A program made the position numbers and the translations under genes. A DNA stretch of 5,153 nt from Thermococcus sp. (GTDB taxonomy: Archaea; Methanobacteriota_B; Thermococci; Thermococcales; Thermococcaceae): NCBI GenBank assembly GCA_027035445.1, contig JALVUT010000027.1:1-5153 (forward strand), in the 5' to 3' direction. The notes below the pieces were generated by a model. It was not told the DNA's origin. It worked only from the letters and a program-made list of their open reading frames with translations, and did no database searches. This document shows, piece by piece, positions 616 to 4,734 of the stretch. Every line of letters begins with the position of its first letter. Within the stretch, counting starts at the first letter, position 1.

Positions 616-1671
616 ATGCTCCTCTACGGCGACGGAAGGGTGTTCTTCGCCTTCTGCCCTTCTTCCGGCGGAATCTTTGAGCTTGAGCCGGGAGAGTTCA
701 AAGCCCTGAAGGAGAATCTCCCAGAGGCGGAAGAACTGGTAAAGGCCATGCGCGAGTACGAGGGGGAGACATACACGGTCGGGGACTTCCTAAGCCACCT
801 CACAAGCCTCGGGATAGAGCTTGAGAGGCTCAACGCGCCGGCGAGCGTGATCTTCGAACTTACAAGGGACTGCAACTGCAAATGCAAGCACTGCATAGTC
901 TCGGCTGGAAAGCCGCTTCCAAACGAACTCACAACCGGGGAGTGGTTACAACTCGTTGACGAGATAAGCGATTACGCGGTGAGGCTCACCCTCACCGGCG
1001 GAGAACCGTTAATCCACCCGGGCTTCTTCCGAATCCTCGAGCGCGCGAAGGAGAAAGGCCTCTCGATAAGGCTCCTCACGAACGGGACTTTAATTGAAGA
1101 GCACTCCGAAGAGCTTGGAAGGCTTTTGGATGCGAGAATTGATGAAGTTCAGGTTTCCCTCGATGGGAGAAAGGAAGCGCACGACTCGATAAGAGGGGCT
1201 GGAAGCTATGAGAAGGCCATCGCAGGAATCAAAGCGCTCGTAAGGGAGAACCTCCCGGTTTCCGTTGCGTTCACCCTGGTTCCAGAGAACAGGGGCGAAG
1301 CTTTACCTCTATACCGGGAGGTCACAAAGCTCGGGATAGAATCCTTCAGGATAGCGTGGGGTTTACCAGCTGGAAGATTGAGGGAAGCCGTTCCCTACGC
1401 TGAGTATCTGAAGACCGTTGAAGAGGTGAAGAGGGCGAGTGAAGAACTCGGCGTCCCGGTTTCCGGCGGTGAGCTGGGTGCACCGCTGGAGGTTAAGCCG
1501 GAATCCTTCTACCCCTGCGCGGCCGGAACCTCGCAGGTCTTCATCTCCTCAACGGGCGACGTCTACCTCCTTGACGCTCTTATGTGGCAACACGATTATC
1601 CTGCTGTCTGCCTTTCTGACTACTTCGATGTTTGTTCCTGGATATTTTTCTACCCTGTCTCCTTCTTCTAA
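616..1671 (+). CDS. Radical SAM/SPASM-type enzyme, 3'-truncated
   Basis: An iron-sulphur enzyme predicted to cleave S-adenosylmethionine and start radical chemistry on a peptide or other substrate. The ATG at 616 follows GAGGTGGT. Residues 1-75 form a small domain (with FELEPGEFKALK) that resembles PqqD-like peptide-recognition regions. The radical SAM core follows: CNCKCKHC with C86, C90 and C93 (CX3CX2C) for the 4Fe-4S cluster, LTGGEP at 126-131 for SAM binding, and VSLDG at 180-184. Near residue 301 a SPASM domain begins (CAAG, then STGDVYL). In SPASM proteins GDVY is normally followed almost at once by cysteine, as in YPC or YLC. Here the sequence changes after L318 (base 1569) to a 33-residue tail with no family character. 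The remaining auxiliary-cluster cysteines, probably 50-80 residues, are missing. The core is complete but the product is probably non-functional or altered. Family call secure; substrate unknown. Confidence 0.85.
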   Translation: MLLYGDGRVFFAFCPSSGGIFELEPGEFKALKENLPEAEELVKAMREYEGETYTVGDFLSHLTSLGIELERLNAPASVIFELTRDCNCKCKHCIVSAGKPLPNELTTGEWLQLVDEISDYAVRLTLTGGEPLIHPGFFRILERAKEKGLSIRLLTNGTLIEEHSEELGRLLDARIDEVQVSLDGRKEAHDSIRGAGSYEKAIAGIKALVRENLPVSVAFTLVPENRGEALPLYREVTKLGIESFRIAWGLPAGRLREAVPYAEYLKTVEEVKRASEELGVPVSGGELGAPLEVKPESFYPCAAGTSQVFISSTGDVYLLDALMWQHDYPAVCLSDYFDVCSWIFFYPVSFF

Positions 1672-2571: not shown

Positions 2572-3006
2572 TTAAACGTTTCCCGGGACGAGCTCCACAA
2601 CGTCCCCGACGACCTTAAAGTCTTCATCCAGGGTTGCCAGCCTTTCACAGCCGTACTCGATTGCCGTAGCGTCGTGGGGTAGGAGGCCGTATCGTCTGAG
2701 GAAAGTTGAAGTCTTCGCCCAGTTGTGGGAGTCTCGAACAACCACGACTCCGTAGGCGTTCAGAAAAGCTAGAATCCCTGCGAGGTATTCGACTGCCTTA
2801 GTTCTGAACTCCTCGTCCTTTTGGAGGAGCCTCCAAACCTTTCCAACGGAGCCCCCTTCTCTCTTCATGAGGACGAACCACACCTCATCTACGACTATGT
2901 CAGAGGTTATCTTGACTTCCTTCTCCTCGAAGACCCTCTCGGCAAGGGGCGTCAGCTCCGTTTTAACGAGGGCGTTGTAGACCACGCTTGAGTCAATGAA
3001 AATCAC
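2572..3006 (-). CDS. vapC: PIN-domain ribonuclease toxin, VapC type
   Basis: A predicted metal-dependent endoribonuclease and the toxic half of a VapBC-type pair. The 144 residues match the family's usual 125-150. The PIN acidic residues are all present: D5 in IFIDSS at the N-terminus, D40/E41 in VVDEVWF, D112 in LPHDATAIEYG, and D127/D129 in LATLDEDF. These would bind Mg2+ or Mn2+ in the active site, so the nuclease should be active. Translation starts at a GTG at 3006 that overlaps the stop of the upstream small gene by four bases (GTGA). A GGAGGTGT ribosome binding site lies within that gene, so synthesis is coupled to the antitoxin. Which RNA is cut cannot be told. The PIN-fold assignment is strong; the toxin role rests on gene order. 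Confidence 0.88.
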   Translation of the reverse strand: MIFIDSSVVYNALVKTELTPLAERVFEEKEVKITSDIVVDEVWFVLMKREGGSVGKVWRLLQKDEEFRTKAVEYLAGILAFLNAYGVVVVRDSHNWAKTSTFLRRYGLLPHDATAIEYGCERLATLDEDFKVVGDVVELVPGNV

Positions 3007-3179
3007 TCCTCATACACCTCCAGCCTCAGCCTGAAGAACTCCTCGGCCTTCCCCCCGCCGAACATCCCTATCCTAGCCTTTTTCTTCATCTCCCGGACGA
3101 GCTTCAGGAACTCTTCCTCGGCCATAAACTCCTTCAGGGCGGCATTCCTCAGGTGCAAATTTCCGGCAACGTCTTCCAT
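3003..3179 (-). CDS. vapB: VapB-like antitoxin, 58 residues
   Basis: A small protein encoded immediately before the PIN toxin, with stop and start codons overlapping by four bases, the standard antitoxin-toxin arrangement. The ATG at 3179 follows GGATGGTGGG. The sequence is helical and highly charged, with many glutamates and lysines. A central Lys/Arg patch (MKKKARIG, about residues 31-38) leads to MFGGGKAEEFF and a C-terminal helix. I do not see a clear AbrB or ribbon-helix-helix DNA-binding motif, so the family is unassigned; the C-terminal half is the likely toxin-wrapping segment. The antitoxin role is inferred from position and size. It lies 45 bases downstream of the MNT gene and may also be read through from the HEPN promoter. 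Confidence 0.72.
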   Translation of the reverse strand: MEDVAGNLHLRNAALKEFMAEEEFLKLVREMKKKARIGMFGGGKAEEFFRLRLEVYEE

Positions 3180-3208: not shown

Positions 3209-3226
3209 CCTAAAATAGCTTTCTCT
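3209..3226 (-). promoter_or_regulatory. Probable promoter of vapBC
   Basis: On the minus strand GAGAAAG is followed by CTATTTTAGG (3209-3218), a BRE/TATA-like pair overlapping the end of the MNT gene. Initiation about 25 bases downstream falls near 3188, giving a leader of roughly 8-10 bases before the vapB ATG, normal for this group. This suggests vapBC can be expressed independently of the HEPN/MNT operon. Confidence 0.45.
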
Positions 3227-3869
3227 AAAGCCGGTAGAACAGATCAGCCCCCTTGAGCAGGGTGAAGGCCTCGTATCCAACGCCCCAGAGGTCGAGGAAC
3301 TCCTTAAAACGATAGGTGTTCTCTACCGGGACAAGGACAACCCAGGCCCCGAGCTGAAGGGCACCAAGCTCCTTCAGGATGCCCCCCTTTCCGTCCCTGC
3401 CCCTGAGCGCGTACTGGAACCTAACGCGGTCCTTTCTCTCCATCCCGCGTAGCGTGAAGCGGAAGAGCGTGTATGCCTTCCCGTTCATCAGCTCGGCCAG
3501 CGGTTTTCCCCGGGTGAGCGAAAGCCCCTCTATGACGACGCCGAGCGAGGCCAGGTTGTTCGGGTCGAAGAGATCTTCGATGGCCATCGTCCTAATGTCC
3601 AGTCTCTTCCCGGGAAGAATTCCCTTCAGTTCTGCCTTGAATTCGAGCACGAGACTTCTGACTTCACCGGGATGCAGTCTCTCTTTTGTAAGTATCATGA
3701 TGTCAATGTCGTTCGGGGAAGGCTTTCCAATCACGGTGGAACCGTATAGAACAACATCAAAGACCTCCCGATGTTTTTCAGCAAACTTTCTGGCGGCTTC
3801 ACCGAGGGCATCCATAACATCCACCGGAAGAGAAAAATCAGAGGGAAGAGCATACTCTGTGAACGTCAT
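3225..3869 (-). CDS. MNT-domain nucleotidyltransferase, partner of HEPN, with C-terminal extension
   Basis: A minimal nucleotidyltransferase of the polymerase-beta superfamily. In HEPN/MNT toxin-antitoxin pairs such proteins neutralise the HEPN ribonuclease by transferring AMP from ATP to it. The signature is intact: G43-S44, then D54 and D56 (GSTVIGKPSPNDID), with the third acidic residue probably D91 in KRLDIRTM. The core spans about residues 20-115. At 214 residues it is much longer than the roughly 100-140 residues of stand-alone MNT proteins. The extra part (about 130-214) has an Arg/Lys-rich stretch, RGMERKDRVRFQYALRGRDG, then alternating hydrophobic strands and helices (WVVLVPVE, FKEFLDLWGV) of unknown fold. 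The ATG at 3869 lies inside the HEPN gene, giving a 32-base overlap and tight translational coupling. Such proteins are often labelled DNA polymerase beta subunit, which would be misleading. Confidence 0.8.
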   Translation of the reverse strand: MTFTEYALPSDFSLPVDVMDALGEAARKFAEKHREVFDVVLYGSTVIGKPSPNDIDIMILTKERLHPGEVRSLVLEFKAELKGILPGKRLDIRTMAIEDLFDPNNLASLGVVIEGLSLTRGKPLAELMNGKAYTLFRFTLRGMERKDRVRFQYALRGRDGKGGILKELGALQLGAWVVLVPVENTYRFKEFLDLWGVGYEAFTLLKGADLFYRL

Positions 3870-4167
3870 TTCTCAGCACCTCCACCCACTCCCTTTCAAC
3901 CCGCTTCATGTAAGAACTCCTGTAGTAGTTGAAGTGAAAGTCCACCACCTCATAGAGCTCCGGATACCTCTCCTTCAGTATCCTGAACCTCTCGGTGTGG
4001 TTCCGGGGCAGTCTGCCGGTATCCCTCAGGATAACGTAGTCGCACAGCGCCACCAGCGCTTTAAAGTAAAGGTTCATCGCCGAATTGTAATGGCCCTTTG
4101 AAAAGAGCAGATCTGCGTCTTCTAGGTACTCCCTTGCGTTTTCCAACAACTCAGTAGGAGTCGTCAT
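3838..4167 (-). CDS. HEPN-domain protein, probable ribonuclease toxin of a HEPN/MNT pair
   Basis: A 109-residue all-helical protein of HEPN type, predicted to be a metal-independent RNase working as a dimer. The N-terminal helices carry AREYLEDADLLFSKGHYNSA (11-30), typical of HEPN proteins. The catalytic Rx4H motif is R52 to H57 in GRLPRNHTE. In the well-studied HepT toxins the motif continues as HxY and that tyrosine is AMPylated by the MNT partner. Here the residue is glutamate (E59); other tyrosines lie at 81, 82 and 86. The ATG at 4167 follows GAGGTGGGG. The gene is first in its operon, 32 bases overlapping the MNT gene, under a strong promoter at 4201-4218 flanked by two palindromes. 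Pairing with MNT makes a toxin-antitoxin role likely; which RNA it cuts is unknown. Confidence 0.82.
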   Translation of the reverse strand: MTTPTELLENAREYLEDADLLFSKGHYNSAMNLYFKALVALCDYVILRDTGRLPRNHTERFRILKERYPELYEVVDFHFNYYRSSYMKRVEREWVEVLRNDVHRVCSSL

Positions 4168-4178
4168 CTCCCCACCTC

Positions 4179-4192
4179 GTTATCATGATAAC
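4179..4192. promoter_or_regulatory. Palindromic operator copy 1, GTTATCATGATAAC
   Basis: A perfect 14-bp inverted repeat between the HEPN TATA box and its start codon, over the predicted transcription start near 4180. A protein bound here would block initiation of HEPN/MNT. It is the first of three copies with start-to-start spacing of 39 bp. Confidence 0.75.
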
Positions 4193-4200
4193 AAAAAGGC

Positions 4201-4218
4201 AATATATAAATCCTTTGG
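4201..4218 (-). promoter_or_regulatory. Strong archaeal promoter of the HEPN/MNT operon
   Basis: Minus-strand CCAAAGGA followed by TTTATATATT is close to an ideal BRE/TATA combination for Thermococcales. Initiation about 25 bases downstream falls near 4180, leaving a leader of about 13 bases with its GAGGTGG ribosome binding site. Palindromes at 4179-4192 and 4218-4231 flank it on both sides. Confidence 0.75.
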
Positions 4219-4231
4219 TTATCATGACAAC
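4218..4231. promoter_or_regulatory. Palindromic operator copy 2, GTTATCATGACAAC
   Basis: The same 14-bp palindrome as copy 1 with one change (T to C at position 11). It abuts the upstream edge of the HEPN BRE, sharing its first base with it. It starts exactly 39 bp from copy 1 and exactly 39 bp from copy 3. Confidence 0.7.
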
Positions 4232-4256
4232 GAATCTATGAGGATTAGGCTTTTCT

Positions 4257-4270
4257 GTTATCATAATAAC
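4257..4270. promoter_or_regulatory. Palindromic operator copy 3, GTTATCATAATAAC
   Basis: The same palindrome with one change from copy 1 (G to A at position 9). It lies about 14 bp upstream of the TATA box of the plus-strand UPF0201 gene, next to where its BRE would be. One regulator could therefore affect both divergent promoters. Confidence 0.7.
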
Positions 4271-4277
4271 ACTCCCG

Positions 4278-4290
4278 CTGCCCTTATAAG
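4278..4290 (+). promoter_or_regulatory. Probable promoter of the UPF0201 gene
   Basis: TTATAAG (4284-4290) is a TATA-like box 31 bases before the ATG at 4321. Predicted initiation near 4312 gives a leader of about 8-10 bases holding GGTGGTGGGA. The upstream C-rich sequence is a weak BRE, so activity may be moderate. Confidence 0.5.
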
Positions 4291-4320
4291 CCCCCGCTCC
4301 AACCGATTCCGGTGGTGGGA

Positions 4321-4734
4321 ATGGAGCTGTTCGAGGAAGTTGAAGCTGAGGCTTACGTTTACCCGACCGAGGACATCGAGAGGGTAAAAAGGGCCATGCT
4401 GAACCTTATTCCAGAGCTTGAGTTCGAGGCCTTTGATAGGAGCGAGTATATCATCCTCACCGGGAAGACTAAGAGCAGGAAGGCCCTCCAGAGGCTCTAC
4501 GAGCTCTTCCGGGGGCAGGCGATACTCGACACCGCGCGCTCCTTCCTTGAGGAGGGTTACTTCGGGGAGGAGATAATCATCAGGATGAACAAGCAGGCCG
4601 CCTACGCCGGTTCCGTGAACTTCAACGAGGAGAGCCCGCTCGGCCCGATAACAATAGTCATAAGGACGAAAGACCCGAAGAAGCTTATGAAGTGGCTCGC
4701 ACCGAGGACGAAGGACGGCGTGCCGATAGAGTGA
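4321..4734 (+). CDS. UPF0201 (DUF54) family archaeal protein, predicted RNA-binding
   Basis: A 137-residue protein of the archaeal UPF0201/DUF54 family, predicted from fold to bind RNA and sometimes described as exosome-associated; no biochemical function is established to my knowledge. The family hallmark is the start: an acidic beta strand leading to [17 protein letters not shown] (residues 14-30), then an alpha/beta core with [20 protein letters not shown] (45-64). Later come [21 protein letters not shown] (81-101) and [10 protein letters not shown] (105-114). The length is normal for the family. ATG 4321 is preferred over the in-frame GTGs at 4312 and 4315 because those bases form the GGTGGTG ribosome binding site. 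It is divergent from HEPN and ends 33 bases before the convergent ABC-2 gene. Codon use and GC look native, so it is probably a core gene bordering the accessory island. Confidence 0.87.

Follow-up and report, generated by a model that had tools for sequence, protein, structure and literature searches.

Three near-identical palindromes at an exact 39-bp step, situated upstream of a predicted HEPN/MNT toxin-antitoxin operon in Thermococcus, probably constitute the operator of that operon. The comparisons described below favor a model in which the MNT antitoxin, alone or together with HEPN, would use its C-terminal domain to bind the array, with consequent repression of the operon by its own product. 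The window, i.e., the whole 5,153-bp stretch of DNA that was analyzed, includes the following features:

3225..3869, minus strand: MNT gene (PF18765 nucleotidyltransferase with a C-terminal extension), 214 aa, predicted antitoxin and predicted binder of the array
3246..3485, minus strand: MNT residues 129–208, the C-terminal domain, with a predicted ferredoxin-like fold
3402..3437, minus strand: MNT residues 145–156, the predicted recognition helix, in which residues 149, 152 and 153 vary with operator class
3838..4167, minus strand: HEPN gene (PF05168), 109 aa, predicted toxin, beginning 11 bp past copy 1
4179..4192, unstranded: palindrome copy 1, HEPN-proximal, GTTATCATGATAAC, 0 mismatches, covering the predicted HEPN start site
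4203..4210, minus strand: TATA-like box TTTATATA of the HEPN/MNT promoter, within the 25-bp spacer of copies 1 and 2, read from the sequence
4218..4231, unstranded: palindrome copy 2, middle, 1 mismatch to GTTATCATGATAAC
4257..4270, unstranded: palindrome copy 3, distal, 1 mismatch to GTTATCATGATAAC
4283..4290, plus strand: TATA-like CTTATAAG of UPF0201, 12 bp past copy 3, a bystander or second target, read from the sequence
4312..4734, plus strand: UPF0201/PF01877 RNA-binding protein gene, a bystander

The window was scanned with GTTATCATGATAAC allowing up to three mismatches, which returned exactly three matches and confirmed the first-pass annotation of three 14-bp palindromes with an exact period (39 + 39 bp) in which copies 2 and 3 each deviate by one base. 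As three matches were attained in none of 200 dinucleotide shuffles of the window (mean 0.14), the three-copy array is not a product of chance. The HEPN TATA-like box on the minus strand is bracketed by palindrome copies. The glycolytic motif of the Thermococcales, which defines the TrmB regulon, is TATCAC-N5-GTGATA, and the SurR regulon motif is GTT-N3-AAC. Direct reading bore out the earlier opinion that the palindrome corresponds to neither: TATCA and TGATA are adjacent instead of five bases apart, and GTT is separated from AAC by eight bases. An RNA element was dropped as a candidate identity for the array because an Rfam search of the window produced no family at the gathering threshold.

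The window HEPN scored 25.7 bits against PF05168 (cut-off 22), and the MNT protein scored 30.8 bits against Polbeta (cut-off 26.9) and 22.7 bits against NTP_transf_2 (cut-off 21). Neighboring HEPN (PF05168) and MNT (PF18765/PF01909) genes are a feature of class II HEPN/MNT systems, and the window pair has it. The MNT motif GSX9-10DXD was present in 40 of 41 MNT proteins, including that of the window, and was absent in L044, whereas RX4HXY (R.{4}H.Y) occurred in none of 33 HEPN proteins, six short or broken ones having been left out. In both traits the family resembles the class II HEPN/MNT systems of thermophiles as these are defined in the accessible part of PMC7641770, whose authors state there that they know of no biochemical study of the class; no account of promoter control appears in that part. 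The nearest relatives of the UPF0201 protein are in Thermococcus assemblies (91% protein identity).

A search for HEPN homologues covered 94 genomes of the family, and 70 listed matches, excluding weaker ones and the second pieces of split genes, were examined (30 returned loci and 40 that were fetched). Two or three copies of the window motif, designated class A, were located directly upstream in 16 of 16 returned loci in which HEPN is at least 68% identical, and class A copies also precede the gene in the fetched locus L070. Absence upstream of homologous HEPN/MNT operons, which the first-pass annotation had named as an observation that would count against a regulatory array, was thus not what was found. 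The 190 bp upstream of HEPN in these loci differ outside the array except in close relatives, and therefore common ancestry of a single neighborhood does not by itself account for the array. A double class A site was detected in 21 of 94 genomes and a reversed control pattern in none. Along with the scan of genome G024 described below, these counts do not bear out a motif that is common and randomly placed, although 11 genomes without a cognate MNT have double sites. One solitary exact copy of the motif in G003 was attributed to chance, since it resides within a coding sequence resembling that of a CheY receiver. Two loci are unusual in other respects. L048 (G010:C1) has two perfect copies, no TATA-like box in the spacer and a HEPN match in two pieces, and is probably a dead promoter. 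In L073 (G087:C1) the region ~160–200 bp upstream of HEPN resembles cloning-vector sequence left in a public assembly.

A profile of the MNT C-terminal extension was searched against 115 genomes of the phylum and identified 45 places, all of which are within MNT genes or MNT gene fragments. By our own tally the array is upstream of 42 of the 44 assessable genes or fragments, the 45th (G004:C179) being at a contig end; it is absent from L153 (G013) and L158 (G034, a gene fragment). The arrays comprise two or three sites that are nearly always 39 bp apart, usually with a TATA box in the proximal spacer. A match to MNT with the C-terminal domain was downstream in 37 of the 70 HEPN loci. Of the other 33, sites are present in L047 (at a contig end) and L071 (where HEPN is decayed); the 31 that are left, which lack a match to this form of MNT, produced zero lag-39 palindrome pairs, with <600 bp of downstream DNA available in L078 and L095. 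Moreover, sites are kept at five loci in which HEPN is, by eye, reduced to scraps: MNT is full length in two of these (L152 and L154) and shortened or broken in L155, L156 and L157, of which L155 and L157 are almost the same in sequence and could represent a single locus in two assemblies. Some genomes have two or three classes, with a separate array upstream of each MNT gene: classes A and F in G009 and classes A, B and H in G056, although the latter may be mixed assemblies. No MNT protein with the C-terminal domain was found in two scans of viral contigs; a plasmid search retrieved only a Thermococcus barophilus plasmid and a phage search retrieved nothing, and a Pfam search that included control genomes offered no way to locate such proteins outside Thermococci.

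The array was present in three of 18 UPF0201 loci (L001, L002 and L005) and HEPN/MNT accompanies it only in L002. UPF0201 was ruled out as the main owner, since 15 of the 18 loci are devoid of the array and most arrays are elsewhere. Location between divergent promoters, as originally described, is accurate for the window, but for the same reasons the UPF0201 side of the arrangement looks incidental. We assign the array to the HEPN/MNT operon and not to UPF0201.

The geometry of the arrays was assessed in 160 bp upstream of 40 loci (the window and 39 HEPN loci; 6,354 bp) using palindrome pairs that score at least 22. Lag 39 accounted for 56 pairs and lag 78 for 20; the remaining lags between 15 and 90 contributed five in total. 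Of the 40 loci, 34 had one or more lag-39 pairs with this score; the six below it are L044 and, in class H, L060, L061, L066, L069 and L071. By comparison, 181,257 bp of other sequence contained 13 pairs at all lags with one at lag 39, which was taken to be the L005 array that is part of the set, and the rest of the same HEPN loci (102,104 bp) contained none. In 400,000 bp of the G024 genome, nine pairs were noted at all lags, with one of a different motif at lag 39, and no 14-mer was within one mismatch of the window motif. Exceptions to the 39-bp step are one step in L035 (38 bp), one in L044 (31 bp) and L066 (40 bp). The proximal spacer contains a TATA-like 8-mer (7 or 8 of 8 positions) in 37 of 40 loci, and in 27 the 8-mer starts at position 7 of the spacer (0-based). 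In 38 of the 40, HEPN residue 1 follows the proximal copy at a distance of 8–20 bp. GT at the start and AC at the end were found in 91 of 104 picked copies, a count biased by picking with a preference for these ends; GT...AC palindromes also were top for most loci with the C-terminal MNT domain in a scan without end preference. The copies picked in L061 and L066 for the palindrome-pair analysis are out of register.

Operons in which HEPN is ~36–53% identical have other palindromes at the same place and with the same period. The 42 arrays were assigned as 16 class A, six class B, three class C, six class D, three class E, three class F, one class G and four class H, with the following operators for the further classes:

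Class B: GTTAATnnATTAAC
Class C: GTTTATnnATAAAC
Class D: GTAGGAATTCCTAC
Class E: GTATArTAyTATAC
Class F: GTAGTCATGACTAC
Class G: GTAAT...ATTAC-like, at one locus
Class H, half-palindromic: GTGGTCATGAGAAC / GTTCTCATGACTGA

The eight operator classes require seven changes, the least possible, on a tree built without the predicted recognition helix. Class H is not one clade and its operators are only half-palindromic. On the sequences compared, the eight palindrome classes follow the MNT tree with a fixed geometry and a class-specific sequence.

The MNT C-terminal domain has no Pfam, NCBIfam or PHROG match. In fold searches it matched many unrelated ferredoxin-like proteins, with E2/EBNA1 absent among the matches listed; such a fold is common and indicates no function. 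Of the archaeal relatives P0076–P0085, three proteins (P0076, P0077 and P0083) have Q-Y at 152–153 of the helix. Residues 149, 152 and 153 of this helix do not change within an operator class but differ between classes, columns 149 and 152 being invariant within class with five residues across the eight classes. The identity of residue 152 correlates with half-site base 4 (Q or I with A, L with T, S with G and N with C), and this column was the sole informative one without conflict for that base among 114 tested. Label permutations performed as well in 40 of 1,680 cases for base 4, eight of 70 for base 3 and 46 of 280 for base 5, which provides modest support for covariation based on eight classes that are mostly clades. 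Base 5 was explained by no helix column. When HEPN columns were subjected to the same test, none predicted base 4 and column 78 separated base 3 without conflict. Forecasts for class E succeeded in the case of residue 152, where L accompanies base T, and failed for residue 153, which is H and not F; forecast and check were recorded together, which leaves the forecast-first order unproven. The first-pass annotation observed that neither protein shows an obvious helix-turn-helix, which is correct, but MNT possesses an unnamed C-terminal domain that is predicted to be ferredoxin-like and in which the first helix differs according to the operator. The objection that a DNA-binding domain is missing is probably answered by this domain. 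A more tentative proposal, to which we attach appreciably less confidence, is that the domain might represent a new class of sequence-specific DNA-binding domain in which residues 149, 152 and 153 would set the outer half-site bases, each lineage would possess a private operator within a fixed 39-bp TATA-bracketing geometry, and the timing of HsdR would be controlled in type I operons.

Archaeal start sites are located ~25 bp after the TATA box and the proximal copy therefore lies over the predicted start site. The middle copy ends where the BRE is expected to start. We suggest that the C-terminal ferredoxin-like domain of MNT, probably as a dimer on each palindrome and alone or in concert with HEPN, would bind the array and that the copies would be filled cooperatively at the fixed 39-bp step. 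Because the array is positioned over both TATA and start site, its occupation would block TBP/TFB and RNA polymerase: copies 1 and 2, which flank the BRE/TATA and cover the start site, would exclude these factors and copy 3 would add cooperativity. A rise in the level of MNT, or of MNT-HEPN, would thereby repress its own operon. Action of an MNT on its own promoter has a precedent in SO_3165 of Shewanella (PMC4621449). The constancy of the 39-bp step across eight putative operator classes suggests protein-protein contact between neighboring sites. The term cooperative repressor array, applied to the palindromes at first pass, suits a layout that is family-wide (fixed period, bracketed TATA box and a copy over the predicted start), whereas binding and cooperativity themselves are proposals that derive from sequence. 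The accompanying guess that the HEPN/MNT complex itself is the regulator is probably right, being favored by co-occurrence of array and MNT in 42 of 44 cases, retention of arrays at HEPN-decayed loci and the apparent covariation of palindrome and helix. The data point to a domain inside the antitoxin and not to an outside DNA-binding partner, and eight natural operator/protein pairs are now available for specificity testing. A literature search found no paper for the exact motif and no title or abstract opening that describes the array, with subscription papers mostly uncovered.

The C-terminal domain profile search of 115 genomes left 12 double sites in 11 genomes without a cognate MNT. These orphans are of class A in G001, G052 and G063, and class B/C-like in G001, G007, G021, G038, G064, G066, G067, G085 and G087. 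A double class A site is at a UPF0201 locus without HEPN/MNT in G001, G004 and G063; in G004 a fragment of a class A MNT gene is present on a different contig (L159). In G052, a pair of perfect class A copies with the 39-bp step (L112:1501–1554) is upstream of a gene for a DNA methylase (N6_N4_Mtase), and the search detected no MNT with this domain in that genome. The class B/C-like orphan is followed by an HsdR gene, recognized in a tblastn search with the L222 HsdR (itself confirmed by Pfam) as query, in nine of nine genomes, with an antitoxin-PIN pair intervening in two. HsdS is on the other side in seven of the nine and was not seen in the available stretch of L196 and L197. The type I restriction orphan loci are L187, L188, L191, L195–L198, L202 and L203 (site at 1501–1553), with L213, L215 and L218 also listed. 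The HsdR slot is occupied by array-HEPN-MNT in G025 and G039, and by array-MNT with a decayed HEPN in G028; neither HsdR nor HsdS was seen in the DNA retrieved around the class B/C operons of G094, G056, G004 and G069. The orphans all consist of two sites whose spacer lacks a TATA box. By our own reading, a reading frame passes through the site in L187, L191 and L197 and is closed in L195. Coding constraint may play a part at some HsdR orphans; a pure coding artefact cannot explain all of them given the closed frame in L195. In the UPF0201 orphans of three genomes, 25 of 28 positions in the distal copies are invariant compared to 15 of 25 in the spacer (Fisher p 0.02). The orphan sites are probably relics or, given their paired form and the conservation of the UPF0201 copies, may be other or second targets of the putative regulator.

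Might the HEPN/MNT operator instead be recognized by an unlinked regulator that acts in trans and with which the operons coevolve? Neither HEPN nor MNT matches a named DNA-binding family, double sites exist in genomes without a cognate MNT, and Makarova et al. (2009) proposed, in the available part of PMC2701414, that an outside DNA-binding partner in trans might be needed for HEPN/MNT. We nevertheless regard this explanation as unlikely, as eight operator sequences that track MNT would demand as many outside factors, different arrays stand before their own MNT genes in a single genome (G009, and G056 with the reservation about mixed assemblies), and the MNT helix covaries with the operator. 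A role for the array in expression of UPF0201, or elsewhere of HsdR or the DNA methylase, instead of or besides the toxin-antitoxin pair would amount to a small regulon. Better conservation of the distal UPF0201 copies than of the spacer and the double sites before HsdR in nine genomes, two with the antitoxin-PIN pair between, are in keeping with such a regulon. Its probability is lower still, however, considering the 15 UPF0201 loci without an array, the lack of a cognate MNT in the HsdR-orphan genomes, the open frame through the sites of L187, L191 and L197 that makes coding constraint possible, and the sharing of the HsdR slot with array-HEPN-MNT and array-MNT modules, so that the HsdR sites may be relics.

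Contact with DNA by HEPN, or by HEPN and an N-terminal surface of MNT, with the C-terminal domain of MNT serving something else, was also considered. Column 78 of HEPN separates base 3 without conflict and there is precedent in Shewanella oneidensis, where the MNT protein SO_3165 binds and represses the promoter of its own SO_3166/SO_3165 operon with no DNA-binding domain predicted, and promoter activity is 1.6-fold higher without the pair, according to the accessible portion of PMC4621449; the two Shewanella proteins form a hetero-octamer in the part of PMC7641770 that was available. This explanation is quite improbable, as the 31 HEPN loci without the C-terminal MNT domain have no array, arrays remain where HEPN has decayed, and base 4 is predicted by no HEPN column. 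The Shewanella promoter, as depicted in the same portion of PMC4621449, has palindromes near –10 and –35, and its operon resembles the window operon in the self-repression that we propose for the latter; it has two dissimilar palindromes and a short MNT (15.6 kDa), whereas the window operon has the order HEPN-MNT, a 214-aa MNT with a C-terminal domain, and near-identical palindromes at a fixed 39-bp step. Finally, chance or a non-regulatory repeat, such as recombination or mobility sites, might be entertained as the modules are at different places in different genomes. That explanation is scarcely credible in light of the shuffles, the lag-39 control and the G024 scan, the fixed position relative to TATA box and start codon, and a sequence that changes by class while the layout does not. 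Operation of the array as an autoregulatory operator of HEPN/MNT is the reading that we prefer.

Among known regulators, the controller (C) proteins of restriction-modification systems are small autoregulators encoded in the operon of the restriction gene. The array-HEPN-MNT-HsdR arrangement in G025 and G039 is comparable in that a putative autoregulator is part of a restriction operon, but C proteins are helix-turn-helix proteins without a toxin role. Papillomavirus E2, which has a dimeric ferredoxin-like DNA-binding domain, binds palindromes by means of a recognition helix. The dimeric domains of LANA and EBNA1 combine a ferredoxin-like alpha/beta domain with a recognition helix in the part of PMC3798461 that was accessible; the likeness of these three proteins to MNT is an analogy only, as they showed no sequence kinship with its C-terminal domain and are absent among the structural matches listed.

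The vicinity of the operon has additional features. A PIN-domain toxin gene and a gene for a 58-aa VapB-like protein (window 2572–3006 and 3003–3179, minus strand) are directly downstream of MNT. This pair or its remains adjoin an array remnant in L019/L005 and L116, and L001 starts within the small gene. The stretch from a ZIP-type transporter or radical SAM gene to UPF0201 has the look of a hot spot; the short L003 stretch contains neither the HEPN/MNT nor the PIN module there. A 272-aa protein encoded on the minus strand (1549–2367) has no Pfam match and weak similarity (20% over 172 aa) to the PIN neighbor in L019. Its gene apparently cuts the radical SAM gene (window 616–1671) at ~1560–1580, and the radical SAM gene is cut in L116 as well.
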